Shown here piece by piece: positions 15,058 to 52,960 of a stretch of 62,860 nucleotides of DNA (its first letter is position 1; every line of letters begins with the position of its first letter). The DNA comes from Promethearchaeota archaeon (GTDB lineage: Archaea > Asgardarchaeota > Lokiarchaeia > Sigyniarchaeales > SOKP01). Position numbers and translations under genes: made by a program. Where the stretch lies: the NCBI GenBank assembly GCA_011364975.1, contig RDOE01000009.1, positions 1 to 62,860 of the forward strand, written 5' to 3'. The notes under the pieces were generated by a model. That model was not told the DNA's origin. It saw only the letters and a list, made by a program, of their open reading frames with translations, and did not search any database.

Positions 15058-16386
15058 TTAATACGCCTTTCCTTTTTTCTTTGCTTCCATATAATTGCTA
15101 ATTATTTGATTCATCATATCATCAGGTCCGACCGTTATAAGATTGACTCCTAAATTTTTTATACCTTGCTTAACTATTAAAATATGCTCCATCATTTCCT
15201 CACTTATCGCTTCAGCAAGTGCTTTATCAGTTGTAGATAAATCTACTTCATGTATTTCAAACCAAGGACTGAAAGGATTTATTATTATGATAGTATGGTT
15301 GAAAGGTATTAATTTCCGAATAGCTTGACCAAATTCATTCGGATTTACTTCTAAATCGGTAATTAGAAAAACTAAACTTCGTTTCTGAAATCGGCGATTC
15401 AGATAATCCATAGCTTCTACAATCCTACATTTTCCTTGTGGTTTAATTTTAGCTACAAAGTCTAAGACTTGATAAAAATGATCCTCGCCTCTTCCTGGTT
15501 TTAGAAATTGATAATTTTTTCTATCGGAGAAGGTAAACACTCCTACATTATCTCTTCGTGTTAATGCCACTTTAGTTAGTAGCATACAAGCTCTGATCGC
15601 GTATTCAAACTTAGTATTTTCTATTGCTCCTCCTGCCATAGAATTTGAGGAGTCAACTACTATCATTACGGTAACATCTCTCTCACTTTCAAATTCTTTT
15701 ACTATTAATTTTTGGGTACGAGCACTGGCTTTCCAATCTATTAATCGAAATTGATCACCAAATACATATTTTCTCATTCCATAGAATTCTGAGCCTAACC
15801 CTTTTTGTTTTGATCTTTGAAGTCCGTAATTTAAGTTTAATGAACGTTTCGAACCTAAAATCTCTATTCTTTTAATATCCTCATAAGGAGGATAGATTAA
15901 AATATCTGAAACGCTATCTGGTACAATTCTTTCCACGGAGTTAAATCCAAGTCTATCTTTTACTGTAACAGAAAGAGGTCCTAGAGGATATTCACCTCTT
16001 ACTTTTGGTTCAAGAACATAACTAAACTTAATTATGCCCTTAGGTCCAATTCTGGTGGATATAAAATTTTCTCCCAGTACTAAACGGAAAAGTTGTGGAT
16101 TATAATAATCTCTTATTTCGAGGAATTCAAAGCTATTTTTCCCAGTATTTTCGACTATCACTTTAATGTGCACAAAATCATCCTTAAACACTTTCTCTTT
16201 TTCAAGTTCTCTCTTAACTTTCAACTCTTCAATATTCATCTGCCAATAGAAAAGTGGTAAACTAATTACTGTGCTGAAAATCAATAGCACAGCGAAGTAA
16301 ATCAAAAAGTAATTAACAAAGGCAAAACCTGCTGTGAGAAAAAATACTGAAAATAGTATTAAAGCTCTCCCTTTTCCTCCTAACAT
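15058..16386 (-). CDS. DUF58 protein with VWA-like domain
   Basis: Two membrane segments lie within the first 50 residues, then a beta-rich region (VKVIVENTGKN-like, EIRDYYN). It then has the DUF58 signature: YGMRKYVFGDQFRLIDWKAS followed by ARTQKLIVKEFE. Directly after comes a von Willebrand A-type fold with the MIDAS sequence VDSSNSM (DxSxS), the Thr loop and FLITDLE (third metal Asp). DUF58 proteins are usual partners of MoxR AAA+ ATPases and are thought to act as substrate adaptors or maturation factors at the membrane. Here the MoxR gene lies 76 bases upstream on the same strand. Confidence 0.88.
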   Translation of the reverse strand: MLGGKGRALILFSVFFLTAGFAFVNYFLIYFAVLLIFSTVISLPLFYWQMNIEELKVKRELEKEKVFKDDFVHIKVIVENTGKNSFEFLEIRDYYNPQLFRLVLGENFISTRIGPKGIIKFSYVLEPKVRGEYPLGPLSVTVKDRLGFNSVERIVPDSVSDILIYPPYEDIKRIEILGSKRSLNLNYGLQRSKQKGLGSEFYGMRKYVFGDQFRLIDWKASARTQKLIVKEFESERDVTVMIVVDSSNSMAGGAIENTKFEYAIRACMLLTKVALTRRDNVGVFTFSDRKNYQFLKPGRGEDHFYQVLDFVAKIKPQGKCRIVEAMDYLNRRFQKRSLVFLITDLEVNPNEFGQAIRKLIPFNHTIIIINPFSPWFEIHEVDLSTTDKALAEAISEEMMEHILIVKQGIKNLGVNLITVGPDDMMNQIISNYMEAKKKGKAY

Positions 16387-16462: not shown

Positions 16463-17443
16463 TTAGATAGGGACGGGAATATCTTCGATAATATTCTTGA
16501 TCACGGTTTTTACATCCAATCCTTCAAGTTCAGCTTCTGGTTTTAATAAAAGACGATGGTTCAAAGTAGGAACTGCTAAGGCGCGAACATCATCAGGAGT
16601 AACGTATACTCTCCCCAAGATTGCTGCTCTTGCTTTAGAGCAATTCATTAATACTAAAGATGCTCTTGGTCCGCAACCCAATCCAATTTGGGGATGATTC
16701 CTTGTTTTTAAGATAATATCTCGTATATATTTAAGAATTCTATCGTCGATGTAGACCATATTCATTAATTTCTGAGCTGCTAATATTTCTTCACCATTAG
16801 TGATTTCTTCTACTGAGGGGGATTCTCCTGAAATCTGTCTTCTCATAATATCAACTTCTTCGTCTTGTTCGGGATAATCCAACCATAACTTAAATAGAAA
16901 TCTGTCTACTTGCGCTTCAGGAAGAGGGTACGTTCCTTCCATTTCAACAGGATTTTCTGTAGCTATTACAATAAATGGTTTTTCTAATGGTAGGGTTTGA
17001 CCCTCTATAGTTACTTGTCGTTCAGCCATAGATTCTAATAATGCTGCTTGGGTTTTTGGTGCGCTTCTATTGATTTCATCCGCAAGCACAACATTGGCAA
17101 AGATGGGACCTTTTTGAAGTACGAAAGTTCCTTGTTCTTGAGAAAATATTTTAGTACCAGTAATATCACTTGGTAATAAATCAGGTGTGAATTGTACTCT
17201 ACGAAATGAAATACCAAGTGTTTTAGCAAATGTTTTAGCCATCACAGTCTTTCCTAACCCAGGAACGCCTTCTAAAAGCACGTGCCCATTTACAAGTAAC
17301 GCAATAAATAATTGTTGTAAGATCTCTCCATTTCCAACAATTACTCTGCTCACCTCTGAAAGTACTTCTTGAGCGATCCCTCTAATTGGAGAAACATCTA
17401 ATTTTTCCCTATCATAATATTTTGCTTTATCTGGAGCTTCCAT
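16463..17443 (-). CDS. MoxR-family AAA+ ATPase
   Basis: A 326-residue MoxR-type AAA+ ATPase. Walker A is EGVPGLGKTVMAK near residue 58, Walker B VVLADEINRSAPKTQ, sensor 1 IVIATENPVEMEGTYPLPEAQ, and the arginine-finger region QVDRFLFKL. Sensor 2 is in GCGPRASLVLM. It is the MRP-type subgroup that pairs with DUF58 and transglutaminase-like membrane proteins. It likely remodels or inserts a cofactor into client proteins, using the adjacent VWA-domain protein as adaptor. A weak AGAGGAA Shine-Dalgarno precedes the ATG. Confidence 0.93.
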   Translation of the reverse strand: MEAPDKAKYYDREKLDVSPIRGIAQEVLSEVSRVIVGNGEILQQLFIALLVNGHVLLEGVPGLGKTVMAKTFAKTLGISFRRVQFTPDLLPSDITGTKIFSQEQGTFVLQKGPIFANVVLADEINRSAPKTQAALLESMAERQVTIEGQTLPLEKPFIVIATENPVEMEGTYPLPEAQVDRFLFKLWLDYPEQDEEVDIMRRQISGESPSVEEITNGEEILAAQKLMNMVYIDDRILKYIRDIILKTRNHPQIGLGCGPRASLVLMNCSKARAAILGRVYVTPDDVRALAVPTLNHRLLLKPEAELEGLDVKTVIKNIIEDIPVPI

Positions 17444-40842: not shown

Positions 40843-42036
40843 TTAAATCCAATCTCCTGTAGTCAATTTTTCTGGAAGATATTTATCAGTTAAAAATTCA
40901 AAGCCAAATGTCGAGAGTGCTTGAATTTCTGCTTTTATTTTTAGATTTAAAGCTAATTTCAAATCATTTTCCCATTCCTTATTATTTTTTACAAAATCTT
41001 CGCTTAATAATTCTTTTGTTCTTTTTATATCTGTCTGATTCATGGGAATTCTGCAATCATTAGGGATTTTATATTTCTCTAAATCACGGGTCAATACTCC
41101 AAGAAGTTTAATATTGGGAGTCGCTAGAAAGGGTGATTCATAGCTTAATCTTTTAGATCCTCTAAGATAAACTGAGTGAATATAATGACCATAAGGATCA
41201 CTATCTACTAAAGTGAATACGGGAAGATTTAATTCCTTACTTAATTTTCTTAAAAACATCCTAGTAGCAATATCTGCGGCACCTTTAGCTGTTAAAATAA
41301 TACATGGATAATTTTTCCAGAAACGTGCTTCAGATAACCTTATCATAGCAGCGTCTTTTTCTAAAACTAAAATAAACTCGGCATCTGATTCCAAGATTTC
41401 AATATTATCTAACATTGGGCTAATAGTCCAACCTCCACTGCCAAGACCTTCTAAATCAATAATATCATTTCTATCTCTAATCCGGAGTCTTCCTATACAT
41501 GACCCTTTGGCGGAAGCAACAATATGTGTCGAATTTCTTGTAGTGTAAAGCATTGTAGCAACATCTTCAATGCTTTTATCACTATTTTTTTGATCTCCAA
41601 ATAATTGAACGGAAGAATAATAGATTTCTCTTTTAGTGGCGTGAAGATCTTTTATTAATAACTCATTTACCTTTTCAAGAACTTTCATTAATCGCGTAAT
41701 ATCTGCTACACTTGCTAAAGAGTGAAATTGTTTTTCCATAATCTGTTTTCCAAGAAGTAAAAGATCATTCTCTTCATCCCATATTATATTAGTACTAGTC
41801 TTCGAAGGTAATTGAATTGAAGGTCTTCCTGATTCAGAAATCATCTCTATAATTGAATCAACCAATTGATGAATTCTTTCTAATATCTTTTTTCTGGAAA
41901 GATCATCAATTTTTACCGTATTTTCAGGTAATTTAACTTGTTTTTTTATCTCATCTTGTCCTTTTTTTAAATAATCTTGAAATAACTTTTTTGTTTCTTT
42001 TAAATCCCATTCTTTTTTATTGCTCTTGCTTGCCAT
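40843..42036 (-). CDS. top6A: DNA topoisomerase VI subunit A (Spo11-like)
   Basis: The DNA-cleaving subunit of type IIB topoisomerase VI. The active-site region is HATKREIYYSSVQLF, with adjacent tyrosines at 139 and 140, one of which forms the 5'-phosphotyrosyl link. The TOPRIM metal site is seen in FILVLEKDAAM (Glu) and LVDSDPYGHYIHSVYLRG (Asp-x-Asp). The winged-helix (CAP-like) domain precedes it. 397 residues is normal for the family. The gene begins 10 bases after the end of top6B, as in the usual top6BA operon, with AGGGGAT as Shine-Dalgarno. Confidence 0.95.
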   Translation of the reverse strand: MASKSNKKEWDLKETKKLFQDYLKKGQDEIKKQVKLPENTVKIDDLSRKKILERIHQLVDSIIEMISESGRPSIQLPSKTSTNIIWDEENDLLLLGKQIMEKQFHSLASVADITRLMKVLEKVNELLIKDLHATKREIYYSSVQLFGDQKNSDKSIEDVATMLYTTRNSTHIVASAKGSCIGRLRIRDRNDIIDLEGLGSGGWTISPMLDNIEILESDAEFILVLEKDAAMIRLSEARFWKNYPCIILTAKGAADIATRMFLRKLSKELNLPVFTLVDSDPYGHYIHSVYLRGSKRLSYESPFLATPNIKLLGVLTRDLEKYKIPNDCRIPMNQTDIKRTKELLSEDFVKNNKEWENDLKLALNLKIKAEIQALSTFGFEFLTDKYLPEKLTTGDWI

Positions 42037-42046
42037 TTACATCCCC

Positions 42047-45000
42047 TTAAGCTAAACTCCAATGTTTTTTACCCTTTTTAGTTTCAACAAATATCAAACC
42101 TTTTCGTTCTAAATCTTTTAATTTAAGTTGAAGGAAACGAGCATCCATCATATCCTTTATCTTCATCTTAAATATTAAGGACGTTATAGGTTCTCCTTCA
42201 TTTGTTAACACATCTAATATTTTCTCTGTGGTAATAAGTGGTGTTTCTTCTTGAATAGAACTAGGTTTAACTAATGGTTTAACAACCTGAGTTTTAACCA
42301 TTTTTTCTTGCTTTATTGGTTCTTCCTTAATAATCGGAATTTGCGTTAGTACTATTTCCTTTTTCTCTTCAATTCCTTCTTCTTTTTCCTTTGAAAAGAA
42401 TTCCTGAATATTTTTAATTATTTGTGTTTTACTTGCTGATTTTGTAATAACTATGTTGTGATCTGAACAATATTCTCTAAGTTCTTTAACAGTCCAATTT
42501 TTTAATGTTTTTATGGATAGAAATTCTTCTTTATAATGATCCGTTACTTCAATTTCTTGCACGGTCTCAATAGGAGGCTCCTCAATTTCAATTCCTTTTT
42601 CCCATTCAATAGTAACTTCTTGAGGTTCTTCTTTGGCAATAGTTTCCCTTTCAAGTCTTTTAGGAGGAGTAGGTGTAAGTTCTATCTTTTTTGGTAAGGT
42701 TTTCTTTCCAATTGCTTGTTTCATCATTTCTTCTAATTCTTCACGAGAAAATTTCTCTTTATATTTTTCATTAGTGGAAGTAGCAATAGTGTAGATACTA
42801 TTTATAAAAGAAGGTATATATTTTTCTATTAAACTCGCCCTCTTTTCACTTTTTTTAAAAGTGGCTTTACGATTTAAATAAACTCGTAAACGCCTTCCAA
42901 TCGCTTCAAGACAATATTTTATTTCTTTTACTAGGTCTTCATCATCAGCTAACGCGTTTTTAGATTGAGATTTAAACATAAGATGTACATAGGGACCAGA
43001 AACATTTACTATTAACTTTATAGGTCCTTTAGGAAGGTTATTATCATATATCTCTAATTTATAGTTCTTCCAATTAACGCTTTGTACTGCTTTAGTTATA
43101 GCGCAGTCTGCTGAATCCCTTAATTTTGGTGTACGATTTACAAATCTAGACAGGACATCTCTGGAGCGTTTGGGAGTCTCAAGCTTCTTAGGGTCATTAC
43201 AATAGGCTAAACCAGCTTCCACTACATACGCTAAACCCTTTCCACTAGTTGGAGGTCTCGTTTCCGCAGAGACAAAATCATCATCCTTGGTATAATTTTG
43301 AGAAAAAAATTCTAAAACCTCTTGATAACTGTCCTTTTCGACATTTTGGAGGGAAATAAGGTTATTTTCAACAATTCTAATAGCCTGCTCTGTATCAACG
43401 CTTAGATCATTGATATCTATGCTTGCAAGGATTCTTGAATTGTAGTTTTTAAGTTCATCAATAGTAATCGGGATTTTATCTATTTTTTCTAATTTATTTT
43501 TTTGATCCTCCTTTATTATAGCTTTTTTTTTCTCTTCTTGTAGGATTTCGGAAGTTTTTATTAGAACTTCTAAAGGTTCTCCAAAATCATCAATATTCTC
43601 CGATACTTTTAGACCTATTTCTTTAATTAAGGTACTTTCTAGAACAGAATCTCCAACTGGAATAGCTGTATCGGTAGGCGGCGACATATATTTCATTGAT
43701 TTGAATGCATGAAATAGTGAATTAAATTGTTCATTTGTCAATTCAGAAGGTTTTGATTTAGACATTAAAATTTCGTTAATAAGACTTTCAAAATCCTCTC
43801 TATTTTTTAACTTCTTTATTTCAAGAATACCCTCATTAACATTTTCAAAAACTTTTGCTAATTCACTCTTAATTTTTTCTTTTTGTTGAGAAATTTTTTC
43901 TAATTTGCTTAATAGATTATCAATTTCTTTTTCAATTTTTTTAATATCTTTTTTTATTTCTGATTTTTCTATTCTATTATTATGTTTTTTAATTTCATCA
44001 TTAATCTTTTCTTTATCTCTATTTAATTGATTATATCTATCTATAAGCACCCAATATTTGTCCTTTAATTCGTTAGATTGCACTGTATAAATTATTAGTT
44101 TGTCTCTAGGTCTTTCTGATCGACCGAATACACGTTTTTCAAATCTAAGCAAAAATATTTCATCATTTTTTTTATTTGATTTTGAAATAAAGCTGTTCCC
44201 AAGATTTAAAAGATTAAGTTTGTCTTGCAAATCTCTTTCAGCATGATTTATTATATCTTTTGCAGTTTTAGAACTAATTCTTACAAAATTTTCTTGAAGA
44301 AAAGCCGATACAGTCAAATTTTCAGATTTAGCCAATAAATCTTGTAAATCTCCAATATTGGTTGATGTAGGGTGCGGTTTTGCATATTTAGGTTCTCTTG
44401 GAAACGAAGAAACTAATCTTCTGTAGATCCATTCATCTCCATAAGGATCTATAAAAATAACAGTTATATGAGGATTCATTAAAGCTGTTTCTTTAATATA
44501 AGTATCTACGTATCCTCTAACATATTTGACATTCAGGTAATTTAATTTTATATACGTACCATGTAAAAAAGGGCTATCAACTTCTGTCGGATGTATTAAA
44601 TATTTCTTTTCATTTTTGGAAGTTGTAAAAAATTCAGATACGGTAGCATAAATACTTTCAAGATTTTTCGATACCGCAACAATAGGCTTTCCAGTTGTGT
44701 TTTGAGCATCACTAAATGCACTTGGTGCCCCAAATCCTTGACTACCTCTAGTCTGTTTTAACTCAATACTTTTTGAAGATGCTAAATATTTACCAAATTT
44801 TCTTAAGTCTACTTTAGACATTCCGATTCCATTATCAAAAATTTCAAATGTGTAGCTCATTACGTTTTTCTGGGATAGCTCTGATGTAAGAAATGATGCA
44901 GCTTCGTATTCTCTTAGACGAATAATTACAAGTGGCTCGATGTCTATAATTGATTCAACGGGCTTTATAATTTCATTCATATCAAGGATGATACGTTTAA

Positions 45001-45379
45001 CTTCTTCCTCAACTTCTAACTCGGATTTATCAATTATTTCTCCCGAACCTTCTTCTTTATCTTGAAAAGAATCTATAGATATCTCTATTGACTCTGCAGG
45101 AGCTAGACCTATTTCTTTCATCAATGTTAATTTGGCTTCATTGTTTAATGGTTTAGCAATTTCATCTGCTTTAGCTTCTTGAAGAATTGAAAGATTTTCT
45201 AATGTAAGATCTTGATCTAAAGAAAATAAAGCTTTAGATTCCTCCTTTTGGAGTTCATTCCAGTGGTAAGTTTCAATAGCGTCCAATGCGTTATCTAAGA
45301 ATTCGGCTATATATTGTTTGCACAGGTTTAGGATGCCTATAGAACCTTGAATGCTTCCAGTAACCGAATTCAAACCCAA
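42047..45379 (-). CDS. top6B: DNA topoisomerase VI subunit B, greatly enlarged
   Basis: ATPase subunit of topoisomerase VI. GHKL motifs are AEFLDNALDAIE (N box, Mg-Asn), EIFDNGIGM (G1, residues 180-187) and TRGSQGFGAPSA with NTTGKP (G2). Transducer motifs MSPPTDTAIPVGD and SAETRPPTSGKG follow. 1110 residues is about twice the usual length: there is a 110-residue acidic insert between the N box and G1, a coiled coil near 450-525, a helical insert in the transducer, and a C-terminal tail with a SAP-like motif (TVKELREYCSDHNIV, near 955-990) and a winged-helix end. The TTG 'start' directly follows an in-frame TAG; the true N-terminus is in another frame (see 45369-45452). Confidence 0.9.
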   Translation of the reverse strand: MGLNSVTGSIQGSIGILNLCKQYIAEFLDNALDAIETYHWNELQKEESKALFSLDQDLTLENLSILQEAKADEIAKPLNNEAKLTLMKEIGLAPAESIEISIDSFQDKEEGSGEIIDKSELEVEEEVKRIILDMNEIIKPVESIIDIEPLVIIRLREYEAASFLTSELSQKNVMSYTFEIFDNGIGMSKVDLRKFGKYLASSKSIELKQTRGSQGFGAPSAFSDAQNTTGKPIVAVSKNLESIYATVSEFFTTSKNEKKYLIHPTEVDSPFLHGTYIKLNYLNVKYVRGYVDTYIKETALMNPHITVIFIDPYGDEWIYRRLVSSFPREPKYAKPHPTSTNIGDLQDLLAKSENLTVSAFLQENFVRISSKTAKDIINHAERDLQDKLNLLNLGNSFISKSNKKNDEIFLLRFEKRVFGRSERPRDKLIIYTVQSNELKDKYWVLIDRYNQLNRDKEKINDEIKKHNNRIEKSEIKKDIKKIEKEIDNLLSKLEKISQQKEKIKSELAKVFENVNEGILEIKKLKNREDFESLINEILMSKSKPSELTNEQFNSLFHAFKSMKYMSPPTDTAIPVGDSVLESTLIKEIGLKVSENIDDFGEPLEVLIKTSEILQEEKKKAIIKEDQKNKLEKIDKIPITIDELKNYNSRILASIDINDLSVDTEQAIRIVENNLISLQNVEKDSYQEVLEFFSQNYTKDDDFVSAETRPPTSGKGLAYVVEAGLAYCNDPKKLETPKRSRDVLSRFVNRTPKLRDSADCAITKAVQSVNWKNYKLEIYDNNLPKGPIKLIVNVSGPYVHLMFKSQSKNALADDEDLVKEIKYCLEAIGRRLRVYLNRKATFKKSEKRASLIEKYIPSFINSIYTIATSTNEKYKEKFSREELEEMMKQAIGKKTLPKKIELTPTPPKRLERETIAKEEPQEVTIEWEKGIEIEEPPIETVQEIEVTDHYKEEFLSIKTLKNWTVKELREYCSDHNIVITKSASKTQIIKNIQEFFSKEKEEGIEEKKEIVLTQIPIIKEEPIKQEKMVKTQVVKPLVKPSSIQEETPLITTEKILDVLTNEGEPITSLIFKMKIKDMMDARFLQLKLKDLERKGLIFVETKKGKKHWSLA

Positions 45380-45688: not shown

Positions 45689-46966
45689 TCAAATATTTTT
45701 AATTCTATAATTCTCTAGGGCAACATCTAGTATTTTTGATGCAATATATCTTTTAGATTGCTTTTCTATATGTGTAATATGTTTTTCTTTATCAATTATG
45801 TAAACCTCATTATATTTACTATTAAATCCAATATCATCTCTACCAACATCATTTGCGATTATTAGATCCGCTTGAGACTTATTTAATCGATTATAGGCGC
45901 GATCTATTAATTCTGTTCTTGATACATTCGTTTCTGCTTTAAATGCTACAATATATACTTTATAATTCTTCTTTCGTGCCACATCTATTATTTTGGGAGT
46001 TAATCTCATATTAATTTTAAGTTCTTCAACATCATCCGACGAGATCTTCCCTTTAATAAAATCGACGGGTTTATAATCACTTATAGCTGCGGCACATATA
46101 AAGAAATCATATTCTTTGTACGATAACTCATCTTTAACAGATTTTATAAAATCGTCTGAGGATACTACGTTTATTGTATTGATGTAATCAGGAATTTTTA
46201 CCATACACTGCCCTGCGATTAATAAAACATCAGCACCTCTAGCGGCAGCTTCTTTTGCAATCTCGATTCCCATCCTTCCAGAAGAATTATTAGATACAAA
46301 TCTTATCTCATCAATGTATTCTCTAGTCGGTCCAGCAGTAATTAGTATCTTCTTCCCTTTTAAATCCTTTTTAGCGATCACTAGATCAATTACACGATCG
46401 ATGATATCATCAACTTTTGCTATTTTTGCTTTTCCTTCTGAAATTCTTGGTCCAAGAATATCTACTCCGTATTTCTTGAGTCTTGAGATATTTTTTTCAA
46501 TAATTGGATGAAACATACTTTCATGCATTGCTGGTACAATTATAATAGGAATTGAGGACCCGAATGCTGTTGAAACAACAGTTGTTACTGGTGTATCATC
46601 AATTCCATTCGCAATTTTAGAAATAGTATTAGCTGTTGCGGGGCAAACTAATATTAAGTCGGCTTTTCCTACTTCCCTTGGACGATCTCCCGCTATATAA
46701 ACATGTTCGACTTCTCCTGTTAATTTACTGATTACAGGATTACCAGTTGCCCAATGCATTAATGATGGATTTATTAATTCTGTCGCAGCTTTTGACATTA
46801 CAGTAATCACATCTGCACCTAAACGCATCAATTCTCTAGCTATAATTGGAGCAGATATCACAGCAACAGATCCTGTTAAGCATATACATATGGTTTTTCC
46901 TCTAAGAATTGTGCCTTTGGTTTCAATAATATCTTTAGAGGGATGATGTAGATTTTCTCGAGCCAT
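45689..46966 (-). CDS. coaBC: CoaBC: phosphopantothenoylcysteine decarboxylase/synthetase
   Basis: Bifunctional coenzyme A enzyme. The N-terminal CoaC flavoprotein part has CLTGSVAVISAPIIAREL, an ADLILVCPATANTISKIANGI segment in two pieces, and PAMHESMF with its active-site Met/His loop. The C-terminal CoaB part starts LITAGPTREYIDEIR followed by VSNNSSGRMGIEIA and later has CAAAISDYKP and VAFKAE. It joins phosphopantothenate to cysteine and then decarboxylates the product. 425 residues is normal for archaea. Minus strand, single gene. Confidence 0.93.
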   Translation of the reverse strand: MARENLHHPSKDIIETKGTILRGKTICICLTGSVAVISAPIIARELMRLGADVITVMSKAATELINPSLMHWATGNPVISKLTGEVEHVYIAGDRPREVGKADLILVCPATANTISKIANGIDDTPVTTVVSTAFGSSIPIIIVPAMHESMFHPIIEKNISRLKKYGVDILGPRISEGKAKIAKVDDIIDRVIDLVIAKKDLKGKKILITAGPTREYIDEIRFVSNNSSGRMGIEIAKEAAARGADVLLIAGQCMVKIPDYINTINVVSSDDFIKSVKDELSYKEYDFFICAAAISDYKPVDFIKGKISSDDVEELKINMRLTPKIIDVARKKNYKVYIVAFKAETNVSRTELIDRAYNRLNKSQADLIIANDVGRDDIGFNSKYNEVYIIDKEKHITHIEKQSKRYIASKILDVALENYRIKNI

Positions 46967-47132: not shown

Positions 47133-49496
47133 TCACTGATCAATAATTTTGATTTTCAATTTCAATTTTGAAGCAAATTTTAAATATTTATTGAATGTCT
47201 CTTGTCTTAGAATCGATTTATTATCAAGCTTAAGAATTAAAGAAAGTTGTTTGCCATAATAGGTTCTATTCAATTCACTTACATCAAAATTAAAACCCTT
47301 TTCAAACGGAAGTTTGTAAATGGATGAACGTTCAAATTCTTCTTTTCTAATTTTTAAAATTTCTGTAGAGTATTTAATAAACTGAGTATGGCGCATTTTT
47401 TTCAAATCGAATATTATAGTACTTCCTAATTCTTTTTTTTGGAGTAAATCTTCAATATAATTATGAATTTTTTCTAATAAATGCTTACGAAATTCATGTA
47501 AATTTAATGAATTTTGCAGTAAATTGTTTATTATTTCATCTAAAGGTAATTCTAACCCTGCAAGTTCAGTGCTTAAATTTAAAAGAATTAAAAATTGATT
47601 GGTTCTTTCTTTTGGATTAGATTCTAATTCATGATAAACGTAATCGCGTTCCTTATTAATAAAGTCAAACAAAAACTCTTGAAATGCTTTTACAAATTCA
47701 GTATAATTTGGTATAAAAATTCTATCTTCATTTTCAATCAATACCCGATTTGCTTCAAATGGATTTATACTTTTTTTTATTACAGAATTGACTAGAGAAA
47801 GAGGATAATATCCTTCAATAAAATCCATACCCTTTGTAATACTTTTAATTGCATCCTTAAATGAGCATTTTGTTATTACATTGATAGTTTTGATGAGATT
47901 CCGTTCAATTTTAACAGGAGTTTTCCGGCAATAGCATAGATCAAAGGGTTTTAAATCATGAAAAAGAGGATTATTTTGATCAGGAATGACTATTTGTGCC
48001 CCAAAAGCGTTAACTAGACTTCCTTGTCTAGGCTTATTAGCTAAATCCCATTCAATTAATATAAGATCATTAACATTTGAATAATTCTGGTCTATGTCAT
48101 AATTATAATCGATGGATTTACTTATCACAGAATGGAAGTCAATAGGATTTATTTCATATTCATCATTTTCCCCCCAAAACTGCTTTTTATAATAAAAAAT
48201 GTCAGGAAAATTGCTAAAATCGTCCAGAAAGAGTTCTTTTATAATTAAGTAATTTACTCCAATTTCAGAAGATTTAATGATAGAATCACTTAAATCATAA
48301 AATCCAAGATGATTTATTATGTACTTATAAGCGGGATTTTCGAAATTCTCTTTATCATGATTAACAATATAAGTGTTTCTTCTTTTTCTAAAAGCAACTC
48401 TTGTTTTCTTTATATTAAATTTATCAATAAAGAGTTTTATAAAGGAAAACTTTCTCAAATATACCTTCTTTTCTAATTCTTTAATTTCATTTTTATAGGC
48501 TTTGTATCTTTCAATGTATAAATCTTCTGGAATTTCAAGTACAATAAATTGTTTCTTCATCAGCTTTAATTTATCAATGATACAGAAATTTTCAATCTCA
48601 TTTAAAAAATAATTGACGATTTCTGCCTTAAACAGCTTGAAGTCATCAAAATTTATTATATTGTCAATTCCAGGTTCATTTTGTGATATTTTATCATAAT
48701 ATTTTTTTATAAAGAAGAAAGCAAAATATTTTTCATTTATAACTTTCGAGTTTGTAAATTCTATTAATTTCCTAATTAAAAAATTAACAAATGTATTGTT
48801 CTGAAATTTATATTTTTCTAGAAAGGCATAAATTGATTCGATAATTCTTAGTATTTCATAAAAAGAGTATAAGGATATTGCTCTTAAGAAGCGTATAGTT
48901 CCCTGTTCAATATAATTATTATATTTAAGAAGATAATGATCAAATTCATTCTCATAAGAACTTTGCAGAAATTCAAAAAATTCAATATATAAGTTATTTG
49001 ATATGGCAGTTTGAAGAAAATTTTCAATAATAAGCTCACTATCTTGTTGGTTGATAATTGCTTTATTTAGGTAATTTAAGCCTTCAACACAATTATCATC
49101 TTCAAAGCATTGATTAGCTAGTTGGAGGAAATTTTTACTTTTTTTTTTTGATCCAAAATCTTCTGAAGTTAGATAATAATTATCGATTTTGTTAAGGAGT
49201 CTTATAGCGATATTTTCATCCAATAAAGTTATTACTCTAATAATATGGTTACATATCTTATCGTCTCGTTCTGTATGGATTAAAAATTTTGGACAATCAT
49301 GAAAAATTTCAAGATTTTTTTCATCTATAATTAAATGGAATTCCCTATCATTGTCTAATATAATACTCCTTATTTTAATTGGGTCTTTCCTAAGTGAAAT
49401 AAATTTAATTTTATTTTTTGGAAAATCTAGTGATTTTCTATAGAGATTTTCACTAAATTTGCTATTTATGATTTCTGATAACGCTTTATTATTCAT
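47133..49496 (-). CDS. Large protein with variant SWIM-like zinc motif, partner of MoxR/VWA pair
   Basis: 787 residues, soluble, lysine and isoleucine rich. Near residue 65-85 it has LEIFHDCPKF followed 13 residues after the Cys by CNHIIRVITLL, that is HxC-x13-CxH; the SWIM motif is CxC-xn-CxH, so this is a variant with His for the first Cys. The rest is helical with a beta-rich portion around 440-570, and I do not recognise it. It begins 2 bases after the VWA gene ends, so the three genes (MoxR, VWA, SWIM) form one transcript. In bacteria SWIM, MoxR and CoxE-like VWA genes also cluster, with unknown role. Confidence 0.65.
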   Translation of the reverse strand: MNNKALSEIINSKFSENLYRKSLDFPKNKIKFISLRKDPIKIRSIILDNDREFHLIIDEKNLEIFHDCPKFLIHTERDDKICNHIIRVITLLDENIAIRLLNKIDNYYLTSEDFGSKKKSKNFLQLANQCFEDDNCVEGLNYLNKAIINQQDSELIIENFLQTAISNNLYIEFFEFLQSSYENEFDHYLLKYNNYIEQGTIRFLRAISLYSFYEILRIIESIYAFLEKYKFQNNTFVNFLIRKLIEFTNSKVINEKYFAFFFIKKYYDKISQNEPGIDNIINFDDFKLFKAEIVNYFLNEIENFCIIDKLKLMKKQFIVLEIPEDLYIERYKAYKNEIKELEKKVYLRKFSFIKLFIDKFNIKKTRVAFRKRRNTYIVNHDKENFENPAYKYIINHLGFYDLSDSIIKSSEIGVNYLIIKELFLDDFSNFPDIFYYKKQFWGENDEYEINPIDFHSVISKSIDYNYDIDQNYSNVNDLILIEWDLANKPRQGSLVNAFGAQIVIPDQNNPLFHDLKPFDLCYCRKTPVKIERNLIKTINVITKCSFKDAIKSITKGMDFIEGYYPLSLVNSVIKKSINPFEANRVLIENEDRIFIPNYTEFVKAFQEFLFDFINKERDYVYHELESNPKERTNQFLILLNLSTELAGLELPLDEIINNLLQNSLNLHEFRKHLLEKIHNYIEDLLQKKELGSTIIFDLKKMRHTQFIKYSTEILKIRKEEFERSSIYKLPFEKGFNFDVSELNRTYYGKQLSLILKLDNKSILRQETFNKYLKFASKLKLKIKIIDQ

Positions 49497-49498
49497 AA

Positions 49499-52000
49499 TT
49501 AAAATCTAGATTTTATTATATCAGAAATTAATTTTGGAAATTCATTCCAATCTTTGATTGTAAGTAATTGTCCTCCGGCGATTTTAATCATTTTTTCAGC
49601 TTCCTTCAAATTATAGGAGCTTTCTGGAGTAATAAGTATGAAATCAACACCTAATGAGCGCATAACTTTTAATTCTTGCATGGCTTCCCTAATATCAAAA
49701 ACTTCTGCATCTGTAAACAAAACATTTAATTTTTCACGAGAACTAGATTTTTCTTTAAATTGTTTATTAGCCCATTCAAGTGCACTTTGAATCTTAGTGC
49801 CGCCTCTTGCATTTACCGATAAGAGTTCATCAGCTAATTTTTCTAAATCAGCTTTTTCATCTAATTGTTTCAATACGTGAGTATTCGATTCAAAGAACGT
49901 TATCCCGAATTCATCTTTACGCATCCCATAGCATAACATAGTTATGCAAATACTCATATAAGCAAGTTTTTCTCCCGTCATTGAACCACTAATATCAAGT
50001 TCAAAACAACATGATCGCATTCCTTTAGCAGTTTCGAAAACATAGAAATCATCATAATTAATATGTTCTAAATCTTTTCCTTTTTCTAAAAGATTGAATA
50101 TAGTTTCCTCTAAATCTATATTATCAAAATCATCTCCAATAGTATAAGGTCTAACGATATTTATGGGTATAGGCCCAGTGGTGGCACTCCCTAAACGCGC
50201 TCTAGAATAATATATCCCTAATTCAATCAGCATTTTCTTTGCTAGCTCCTTCACTTTTGATTTAGATTGCTCTGGTAAGCTATTTCTATGCAGAAACCAC
50301 TGCTTTAAAAGGTTTTCACCACTACCCGCAGATAAACAGGAAATTAGCTTATCTTGGCCCTCATTTCCACCAACTTGCTGTGCACCTTTTAATGCTTCAC
50401 TTAAATTAAAGTGACCCAAAGCACCTAAAGCATCTCTATTATCATTTGCAAGTGCACTACTTAACAGCTCTTTAAATCTATCCTTTGTTATTTGATCTTT
50501 AATTTGATTTATTAAATTATCGATTCTTTGAAAATCTCCAGTATTCTTTTCAATCATCTTTTTTAATAATTGATAATTTGGCTCAATCAGCTCGTATATT
50601 TCTTCATCAGACATTTCAAGATTTTTTCCCTTCGATTTGATATCTTCCTCCATAGGATTCAAACCTATTTTTCGTAAAAATTCTATAACATTTCTAAGTT
50701 GATCTGGTGTCTCACATGCCTTTAAATTTTGAGAAATAATATCTGGGATTTTTTGAGCTATTTTTTGGCTACAATGCATATTCGAACAGCTATTCATTAA
50801 TTGTTGTAATTTATGAGATAGGGACTTAAAAGCCTCAAATTTCATCTTCTGGTTGTTCGCATCATCTATAGCATTTTTCAATGCTTGATTAAACAGAGAA
50901 TTCCAAGCTTTATTCGCATATGAATTTTTAGTCAAATCTTCTAAAGAAAGATTCATATGTTCCGAAGAAATCGCTTTATTTAATTCATTAAGATACGCAG
51001 ATCTTAATTCCGTCCCAAAATATTGATCTAATGAATTTGTTAAGTTAAAATTGTGTTCAAATGTTGATTGTTGCAATGAATTTTTTAATACTTTATTTAT
51101 ATCGAATTTAGGGGTTTCGCCTAAAGTTTTAGCAGCATTAAATAGCTGATCAAGGTTATTAATTTGATTATGAAGTTGTTCTTTTACTTTATTTATTTCT
51201 TCCTTAATATTATTTTGATTGACTGATTCGTTAAGGAATTTAATAGATTCTAACAAATCCTCCAATTTTCCTGATTTCATCAAATTATTTAAATCTTCTG
51301 CGATAGATTCGTTATTAAGAGCTTTGCTTGTGATTTTTTCCCATTCTCGAAGTGATTTTTCCTGAATTAGATCATTCATGTTTAAATTTGTCGCAGCAAT
51401 TAAGTCCTGGGGAGTAAGAGAATTTATTTTCTCCTCTAGTCGTTTTTGTGCTTCTTCTATTAGTTTTTTCAAAGAATTAATTTCTTCTTTATATAATTCT
51501 GAATCATCATTAAAAAAATTCAGTGCTGATTTATATGGTTCTAATTCACGATTTAAATTGATTTCTTCTAAAAAAGTCTCTAATTTTTGAATTGAATCTT
51601 CATTAATCAACTTAGACATTTCAATTTCCTCAATAATTTCTTGAAGTTGATCCAATTCTGATTTAATTTCTGAATCTAAAGTTTGATCTACTGAACTATT
51701 GATACCATTTAATTCATTTCCAAAAAAGGATTGCACCATATCCTTTTTATAATTTGGAAATAAAATCTCAAAGGCAATATCCTTAGCTAAATCTTGATTG
51801 TCAGGAAAGGAAGTGACCGTACTGATTTCAATATAATCATTAGGAGAAACATGCCCTTTTCTATAATATCTTGATAATATAAGTTTTGGTATAGCTAATA
51901 CTTGTCTAGAAGATGGAATTTGAACAATATCATGATGATTTCTCATTCTTCTTATAAAATCAATGGCGAATTCGCAAGGATTTTCTGGAAAAACTGCCAT
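49499..52000 (-). CDS. VWA-domain (CoxE-like) protein of MoxR system
   Basis: 833 residues. The C-terminal ~210 form a von Willebrand A domain with an intact metal site: ELDISGSMTGEKL (DxSxS), ARGGTKIQSALEW (Thr) and LFTDAEVFD (Asp). Before it lies a very long helical, charged region of about 550 residues resembling a coiled coil, with LARQ-free Lys/Glu/Asn-rich composition. VWA proteins of this sort act as adaptors for MoxR ATPases. The MoxR gene stops 19 bases upstream, with an AGGAGGT Shine-Dalgarno overlapping its stop codon, so the two are coupled. The substrate or complex acted on is not known. Confidence 0.8.
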   Translation of the reverse strand: MAVFPENPCEFAIDFIRRMRNHHDIVQIPSSRQVLAIPKLILSRYYRKGHVSPNDYIEISTVTSFPDNQDLAKDIAFEILFPNYKKDMVQSFFGNELNGINSSVDQTLDSEIKSELDQLQEIIEEIEMSKLINEDSIQKLETFLEEINLNRELEPYKSALNFFNDDSELYKEEINSLKKLIEEAQKRLEEKINSLTPQDLIAATNLNMNDLIQEKSLREWEKITSKALNNESIAEDLNNLMKSGKLEDLLESIKFLNESVNQNNIKEEINKVKEQLHNQINNLDQLFNAAKTLGETPKFDINKVLKNSLQQSTFEHNFNLTNSLDQYFGTELRSAYLNELNKAISSEHMNLSLEDLTKNSYANKAWNSLFNQALKNAIDDANNQKMKFEAFKSLSHKLQQLMNSCSNMHCSQKIAQKIPDIISQNLKACETPDQLRNVIEFLRKIGLNPMEEDIKSKGKNLEMSDEEIYELIEPNYQLLKKMIEKNTGDFQRIDNLINQIKDQITKDRFKELLSSALANDNRDALGALGHFNLSEALKGAQQVGGNEGQDKLISCLSAGSGENLLKQWFLHRNSLPEQSKSKVKELAKKMLIELGIYYSRARLGSATTGPIPINIVRPYTIGDDFDNIDLEETIFNLLEKGKDLEHINYDDFYVFETAKGMRSCCFELDISGSMTGEKLAYMSICITMLCYGMRKDEFGITFFESNTHVLKQLDEKADLEKLADELLSVNARGGTKIQSALEWANKQFKEKSSSREKLNVLFTDAEVFDIREAMQELKVMRSLGVDFILITPESSYNLKEAEKMIKIAGGQLLTIKDWNEFPKLISDIIKSRF

Positions 52001-52013
52001 GACTTTAGATTAA

Positions 52014-52020
52014 ACCTCCT
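52014..52020 (-). promoter_or_regulatory. Shine-Dalgarno AGGAGGT before the VWA gene
   Basis: A near-perfect ribosome-binding site overlapping the MoxR stop codon, 13 bases before the VWA start. It supports co-translation of the two genes. Confidence 0.55.
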
Positions 52021-52960
52021 AGGTTCCTAATGTTTTATGAATTATATTCTCAATAACATTTTCTACTTTCATTCCAGGTTTAGGCTTAATACTTCCAAGT
52101 AAAACATTTTTAGTGATATCAGTAAGAATTTCATAAATTGACATTTTTTCTTTAACATTTTCTTTTTTCTCAAGAAATCTTGTACGTGCTACTAGTTTAG
52201 CAATTGCGATACCTGCCCTTATTGAAGCAGGAATTTCAATATCTATCTTATTTTTTCTAGTTTCATTGATTATTGTATAAATCAGCTCTAATTCAGATTC
52301 TTCAACCACAAAATGCTCAGGTAAGTTGATTCTTATAATATCTAGTTCTGTAGCTTTATCTGGATATGTCAATTTTATCCATACTTTAATTCTATCTTTA
52401 AGTGCTTCTGATAATCTATGAGTTCCAGATAATTCTTCAGGATTCATTGCCGAAATAAAAAAGAAATCCTTATCCGCTTTTATACGCCCCAAATGAGGAA
52501 TACTTATGGAAGCTTCCTCTAAAGGTTCTAATAAAGTGTTTTGGGAATATTCTGTAGCTCTATTTATTTCATTTGCCAAAAATGTGCCACCCTCAAGCAT
52601 AGCGCTTAAAAGAGGGCCAGGATTAAAAGCTTCTAAAACAAAGCCTTTCTTTAAGGTGATTGCAGGATCAAAACTACCAATAAAATGGGAAGGTTTAATG
52701 GACTCATCCATTGTTAACCAATGAAAGCTTTTATTTTTATTTTCTTGGGCTCGTAAACTAGCAAAATATCTGCATAAAATAGTTTTACCAACCCCGGGAG
52801 GACCAACTAAAGCAGGAAATAATCCTGTAGCTTCAGCATCCCTCAGTAATTCTAAAGCTTTTCCATACTGACCAGAAAGCACAATATCAATTTTTTCCTC
52901 AGAAATGTCTTTGATAAGATGTTGATTAAATAACTCCTCAAATTTTTGCTTATTTATCAT
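52019..52960 (-). CDS. MoxR-type AAA+ ATPase (second in window)
   Basis: 313 residues. Walker A is VGPPGVGKTILCRYFAS near residue 39, Walker B GGTFLANEINRATEYSQ with NTLLEPLEE, sensor 1 FFISAMNPEELSGTHRLS and arginine region ALKDRIKVWIKL. It is more distant from the other MoxR here than paralogues in one operon would be and belongs with the MoxR members that pair with CoxE-like VWA and SWIM proteins. It leads a three-gene set with the VWA and SWIM-like genes. Likely role: ATP-driven remodelling of an unidentified protein or complex. Confidence 0.9.
   Translation of the reverse strand: MINKQKFEELFNQHLIKDISEEKIDIVLSGQYGKALELLRDAEATGLFPALVGPPGVGKTILCRYFASLRAQENKNKSFHWLTMDESIKPSHFIGSFDPAITLKKGFVLEAFNPGPLLSAMLEGGTFLANEINRATEYSQNTLLEPLEEASISIPHLGRIKADKDFFFISAMNPEELSGTHRLSEALKDRIKVWIKLTYPDKATELDIIRINLPEHFVVEESELELIYTIINETRKNKIDIEIPASIRAGIAIAKLVARTRFLEKKENVKEKMSIYEILTDITKNVLLGSIKPKPGMKVENVIENIIHKTLGT

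Follow-up and report, generated by a model that had tools for sequence, protein, structure and literature searches.

MoxR-family AAA+ ATPases paired with VWA proteins are widespread, and to our knowledge how such pairs find their targets is mostly unknown. In NorQD, the VWA protein inserts a finger into the ring pore, and rotation of its VWA domain, driven by ATP hydrolysis, stretches the NorD linker (PMC13036017). Bacterial MoxR-vWA ternary conflict systems carry VMAP, iSTAND, FtsH or beta-propeller proteins as third components (PMC7159879). We analyzed a 62,860-nt stretch of contig RDOE01000009.1 from an Asgard archaeon (hereafter the window, to whose proteins the amino acid numbers refer) and focused on three genes encoding a MoxR ATPase, a VWA protein and a third protein with a SWIM-like zinc motif. 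Among the known prokaryotes, Asgard archaea are those most closely related to eukaryotes. A preliminary description of this DNA had claimed a tight three-gene operon, and the open reading frames indeed lie on one strand, separated by 18 bp (MoxR and VWA) and 2 bp (VWA and SWIM protein). We read the operon, with about an even chance of being right, as an Asgard remodeller of the NorQD/midasin type equipped with a dedicated adaptor, in this case aimed at nucleoprotein complexes. The motor part of this reading rests on homology and the adaptor part on one domain recurring beside related motors; the target is one that we infer.

The domain in question forms the C terminus of the third protein and is seen again with partners of the Rad50-like, split, leucine-rich-repeat, WD40 and HEAT types. 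A profile search with the third protein revealed related MoxR-VWA loci having another partner, and we distinguished these from the SWIM-containing type I. In type II (L075, L076 and L078), two genes span the middle, core and C terminus of the protein and lack the SWIM module. In type III (L062, L072, L082, L085, L095, L159, L160 and L162, some of which reach contig ends), a protein of ~175 residues corresponds to the C-terminal domain alone and adjoins a Rad50/SMC-like ATPase. The ATPases scanned matched Pfam AAA_23 and SMC_N, and where complete they carry a CxxC (hook) motif in the middle of the protein; in L160, L162 and L095 the Rad50-like and adaptor genes are operonic with MoxR-VWA. At L176, a gene for leucine-rich repeats followed by the adaptor domain overlaps the start of MoxR, giving the order adaptor-MoxR-VWA. 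The MoxR-VWA pair of Thorarchaeota mostly stands alone, without an adjoining partner, and their genomes (L215-L234 and others) encode up to eight dispersed adaptor-domain proteins each, with the domain usually behind leucine-rich repeats, once with a WD40 propeller and once with HEAT repeats. As a single leucine-rich-repeat protein in the profile could have seeded this link, we ran exclusion and reverse profiles. Profiles built without leucine-rich-repeat proteins still found the leucine-rich-repeat-adaptor proteins, and a profile of the latter alone matched the C terminus of the window family with E-values of 1e-7 to 1e-13. Because the partners of related MoxR-VWA pairs share this C-terminal domain while being otherwise unrelated, we propose that it docks the adaptor on the motor.

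Partner type follows the phylogeny of the motor. When 53 VWA proteins were placed in a tree, types I and II and the proteins with no partner each formed a single group and type III nearly so, and the tree required 6 label changes vs 25.9 in shuffles. Of 227 Asgard genomes, 91 encoded the adaptor domain as well as a long VWA protein, 12 the domain only, 9 the VWA protein only and 115 neither, counts that are confounded by descent. A wider and more tentative proposal, which we consider possible but would not bet on, is that Asgard archaea have one MoxR-VWA motor family whose exchangeable adaptors share a so far undescribed docking domain and serve several targets, the SWIM version acting on the replication or chromosome machinery.

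The front of the third protein carries the zinc motif. Its predicted structure, one of the checks that the preliminary description had suggested, was confident (pLDDT 87.7, pTM 0.80) and divides into a SWIM-like zinc module (residues ~1-110), an alpha-solenoid (~117-359), a beta-rich core (~365-565) and the mostly helical C-terminal domain (~640-787). The HxC-x13-CxH motif was found as it had been described in the 787-residue protein, and H66, C68, C82 and H84 were invariant in 37 of 37 aligned homologues, as were P517 and F518; W483, D484, D506, D519 and C523 of the beta-core were kept in at least 90% of the same sequences. Since some distant homologues had first been chosen by the motif, we guarded against circularity by retesting 62 unique full-length homologues found by profile, all of which keep HxC...CxH, with a spacer of 8-26 residues. 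The canonical pattern CxCxnCxH is replaced by HxCxnCxH, and the Pfam SWIM model (PF04434) left the window protein below reporting and weakly matched 4 of the 37 homologues (best E 0.0011). The module resembles that zinc finger in its CxH half-motif and in the strands before and helix after the metal ligands (a beta-beta-alpha finger) but differs in the first ligand pair and in a conserved stretch of ~50 residues that precedes it; judged by these sequence features, it is SWIM-like only. The third protein had no sequence match in Pfam, NCBIfam, PADLOC or PDB, and a Foldseek search of its model against PDB gave no match at E ≤ 0.001 and just weak alpha-solenoid resemblances. By profile-profile comparison, its three divergent groups could be joined along most of the protein.

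The module also appears in other architectures. At 1573-1582 residues, the Heimdall-type SWIM proteins of L070, L071 and L148 are much longer (L071 meets a contig end), and the additional C-terminal part in L070 consists of HEAT repeats. The module is fused to DUF72 in L137, L138 and L145, and in L140/L141 what appears to be an HD-hydrolase-like stretch comes after it. Genomes of family f4 (L097-L099) encode proteins bearing a canonical CxC...CxH plus an HxxC...CxH motif.

The other two genes supply the motor. MoxR matches Pfam AAA_5 (1.7e-17) and AAA_3 (9.7e-14), and most of its ATPase residues are invariant, with Walker A GPPGVGKT at residues 53-60, sensor-1 Asn173, a DR pair at 189-190 and R248. 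Its Walker B (residues 127-131) reads FLANE in place of the usual hhhhDE, Asn130 replacing the Asp and the catalytic Glu being retained. Every examined member of this MoxR group covering the motif has the Asn, which on the sequence evidence is a family-specific deviation inside an otherwise clear MoxR protein. In a PDB profile search, its nearest relatives scored singly were 2r44, CbbQ and NorQ, with GvpN also close; in NCBIfam, GvpN was nearest at 66 bits, far under the cut-off. The VWA protein had been described as CoxE-like with a helical arm of 550 residues. Pfam places VWA_CoxE at the C terminus, and the predicted structure is all helical over residues 8-603, followed by a VWA domain at ~614-833. 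Its MIDAS residues D669, S671, S673, T735 and D764, forming the pattern DxSxS...T...D, were invariant in 41 homologues.

Table 1. Features of the operon and its surroundings in the window (aa, amino acids)
Feature	Position	Strand	Details
MoxR-family AAA+ ATPase	52019..52960	minus	313 aa, ATG start; Pfam AAA_5/AAA_3
VWA co-chaperone	49499..52000	minus	833 aa, ATG start; Pfam VWA_2 + VWA_CoxE, C-terminal
MIDAS DxSxS of the VWA domain	49982..49996	minus	aa 669-673
Third component, SWIM-like	47133..49496	minus	787 aa, ATG start
Variant SWIM motif H66-x-C68-x13-C82-x-H84	49245..49301	minus	invariant in homologues; window letters H66-D-C68, C82-N-H84
C-terminal adaptor (putative motor-docking) domain	47136..47579	minus	aa 640-787; motif [YF]D[IVL]S-x-L-x-x-T-Y-[YFL]-G-K
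coaBC	45689..46966	minus	syntenic neighbor downstream; context, outside the machine
DNA topoisomerase VI subunits B + A	40843..45379	minus	farther downstream, syntenic in several genomes; context only
Classic MoxR (AAA_3, AAA_lid_2)	16463-17443		second locus, unrelated to the operon
DUF58/VWA protein	15058-16386		adjoins the second-locus MoxR

Put together, these parts suggest how the machine may work. From homology, MoxR would form an AAA+ ring, on which the VWA protein would sit through its C-terminal VWA domain and act as a lever, like NorD on NorQ or the MIDAS domain of midasin, the helical arm of 600 residues carrying the force. The C-terminal domain of the adaptor would dock on this motor, and its front, consisting of the SWIM-like zinc module and the alpha-solenoid, would recognize the target. 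The SWIM adaptor may aim the motor at DNA-bound complexes, such as replication or chromosome proteins, and ATP hydrolysis would, by pulling or twisting, either dismantle the target complex or bring it to its mature form.

The choice of target comes in part from relatives of the adaptor. Stand-alone SWIM-module proteins of ~200-227 residues are encoded between the small subunit of DNA polymerase D (PolD; DP1) and Orc1/Cdc6 at L131 (6262-6942), L132-L134, L135 (3558-4142), L136 and L144, in families f1 and f15; the DP1 side of L134 lies past the contig end, and the large subunit gene DP2 adjoins DP1 in four of the loci. The genome of the window also has a stand-alone HxC...CxH SWIM protein at its PolD/Orc1 locus (G000:C124). 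The variant SWIM module is thereby tied to a replication locus, and the stand-alone protein is possibly an unrecognized replication-associated protein of Asgard archaea. These relatives, the Rad50-like partners and the synteny with topoisomerase VI suggest that the target of the SWIM-adaptor motor is DNA-bound.

Several observations weigh against the machine as we have drawn it. Two Thorarchaeota genomes, G117 and G085 (97% complete), carry adaptor-domain proteins without such a MoxR-VWA pair, so that the domain need not always dock on this motor, and the domain is much diverged in the type I proteins of Heimdall and Thor lineages. As the Walker-B Asp is an Asn, the ATPase activity of MoxR may be low or altered. 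The closeness to topoisomerase VI may be plain synteny, and since type II and leucine-rich-repeat partners lack the SWIM module, DNA cannot be assumed as the target of all versions. A strict co-occurrence of the adaptor domain and MoxR-VWA was considered and rejected on the genome counts and on G117 and G085.

The same motor, lever and adaptor could instead serve one dedicated protein client, recruited for maturation or metal insertion, with the SWIM module as a structural zinc finger or a protein-binding site. The closest characterized MoxR-VWA pairs do serve single enzymes, NorQD nitric oxide reductase and CbbQO Rubisco, and the third protein consists mainly of an alpha-solenoid and an unknown beta core, typical of protein-binding scaffolds, one version being fused to HEAT repeats. 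We nevertheless hold a dedicated client to be less likely, as no metabolic enzyme is consistently linked, the linkage to coaBC is seen in family f1 only and the motor is constant across widely differing adaptor fronts.

To follow the inheritance of the operon, we relied on relatives that are almost all metagenome-assembled genomes, in which some genes are split or interrupted by contig ends. Homologues of the third protein were present in 38 of 58 sampled relatives, and the MoxR-VWA-SWIM operon was found in seven Asgard families (f1, f2, f4, f7, f8, f21 and f23), which answers for the Asgard archaea the call of the preliminary description for a survey of neighborhood conservation. That description had also named two ways in which its idea could fail, the linkage not recurring elsewhere and the CxH pair not being conserved; both linkage and zinc motif are conserved, and neither objection therefore stands. 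In family f1, the operon is near-universal, being present in most complete genomes, and the VWA gene directly adjoins the SWIM gene in 28 of 30 loci. The operon is followed there by coaBC and often by topoisomerase VI subunits B and A (the window, L092, L096, L100 and L149), and upstream valS and a pyruvate-formate-lyase-like gene recur at some loci. Over 17 loci, divergence tracked that of CoaBC (Mantel r 0.85 for the SWIM protein and 0.87 for the VWA protein; 0 of 2000 permutations as high), and the VWA protein was as slow to diverge (0.22) as CoaBC (0.21), with 0.40 for the SWIM protein. Degraded or truncated third-component genes at G036:C267 (L029) and G182:C1:471548-473005 (L146) indicate occasional loss in f1. 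The genome of the window has a paralogous type I operon (G000:C3:3585-9856, L061), the two third proteins being 29% identical. A second, different MoxR locus, which the preliminary description had noticed nearby, lies ~30 kb away in the window.

A strict two-pattern genome scan matched only Asgard-type metagenome-assembled genomes, among them Thorarchaeota, Heimdallarchaeota and Harpocratesius; no bacterial or other archaeal homologues appeared, although restriction to Asgard archaea is unproven by this one scan, our whole-genome searches being built around Asgard genomes. When viral contigs, phages and plasmids were searched, the SWIM protein had no relatives there and the VWA protein one weak domain match, in viral contigs. 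Being syntenic, near-universal in f1 and co-diverging with CoaBC and having no viral, phage or plasmid relatives, the operon speaks for a resident machine and not a mobile defense system at this locus. The preliminary description had proposed a separate machine that was chaperone- or defense-like: linkage, the zinc motif and the resemblance to NorQD and midasin favor the chaperone-like half, and the synteny, near-universality and tracking of CoaBC disfavor the other.

We accordingly consider it improbable that the operon is an anti-invader conflict system, with the third component detecting an invader and the motor freeing an effector. The logic of MoxR, vWA and a variable third component is the same as in the bacterial ternary systems (PMC7159879), and the modular fronts with leucine-rich repeats, WD40 or Rad50-like parts look sensor-like, with up to eight paralogues in Thorarchaeota. 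The Asgard version is, however, vertical and syntenic rather than patchy and mobile, and Pfam found none of the VMAP, iSTAND, FtsH and beta-propeller domains in the proteins of the operon and, in the third protein, no effector domain of any kind, peptidase and nuclease included. PADLOC had no match for the VWA or SWIM protein and only weak ATPase matches for MoxR. The main text of PMC7159879 does not contain the word SWIM, and our literature searches returned nothing on Asgard with MoxR and defense, on SWIM zinc fingers with MoxR or on Asgard with MoxR and von Willebrand. Some relatives, with Rad50-like or leucine-rich-repeat partners, may still have a defense role.

Bacterial MoxR/VWA/SWIM clusters, to which the preliminary description had pointed, do exist in the form of Escherichia coli yehL-yehM-yehP-yehQ, which has the same kinds of genes in a single cluster, but YehQ cannot be aligned with the Asgard SWIM protein and the parallel is therefore at most an analogy. 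That the operon is the direct counterpart of yehL-M-P-Q (MoxR, YehM, VWA and SWIM), inherited or transferred as a unit, is largely refuted and highly improbable: hhalign gave YehQ and YehM a probability of <1% against the Asgard third protein, YehQ has canonical CxC-CxH SWIM motifs, YehP has 378 residues vs 833 and YehL reaches merely ordinary MoxR-level scores.

The reading as a remodeller with a dedicated adaptor is closest to NorQ-NorD and CbbQ-CbbO, which likewise combine a MoxR AAA+ protein, there of the CGN type, with a long VWA partner whose VWA/MIDAS domain is C-terminal and preceded by an N-terminal part. NorQ and CbbQ are among the top PDB matches of MoxR, and the NorD VWA domain in NorQD (9qhe, 1.3e-5) is among the top Foldseek matches of the VWA domain. 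In contrast to these pairs, the Asgard system has an 833-residue partner whose helical arm is very long, a third gene as a regular member and the Walker-B Asn, and no nor or cbb genes are linked to it in the window; with regard to their pore finger and the VWA C terminus placed on the post-sensor-1 loop, the likeness is limited to the similarity of the VWA domains. Midasin (Rea1/MDN1) also joins a MoxR-clade AAA ring to a MIDAS domain, and in structure the VWA domain matches that of human MDN1 (8ql1, 3e-6) best, but midasin is a single chain of six AAA modules. A midasin ancestry of MoxR was considered and rejected: the score of 197 bits is a sum over the AAA modules, the best single module reaching 42 bits vs 81 for 2r44, and no special kinship is thus shown. 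The related motor-MIDAS arrangement of eukaryotic midasin nevertheless means that a modular Asgard version bears on the evolution of remodellers and, if our reading is right, the same motor taking different fronts through one shared domain would be a direct answer to how MoxR-VWA pairs find their targets.

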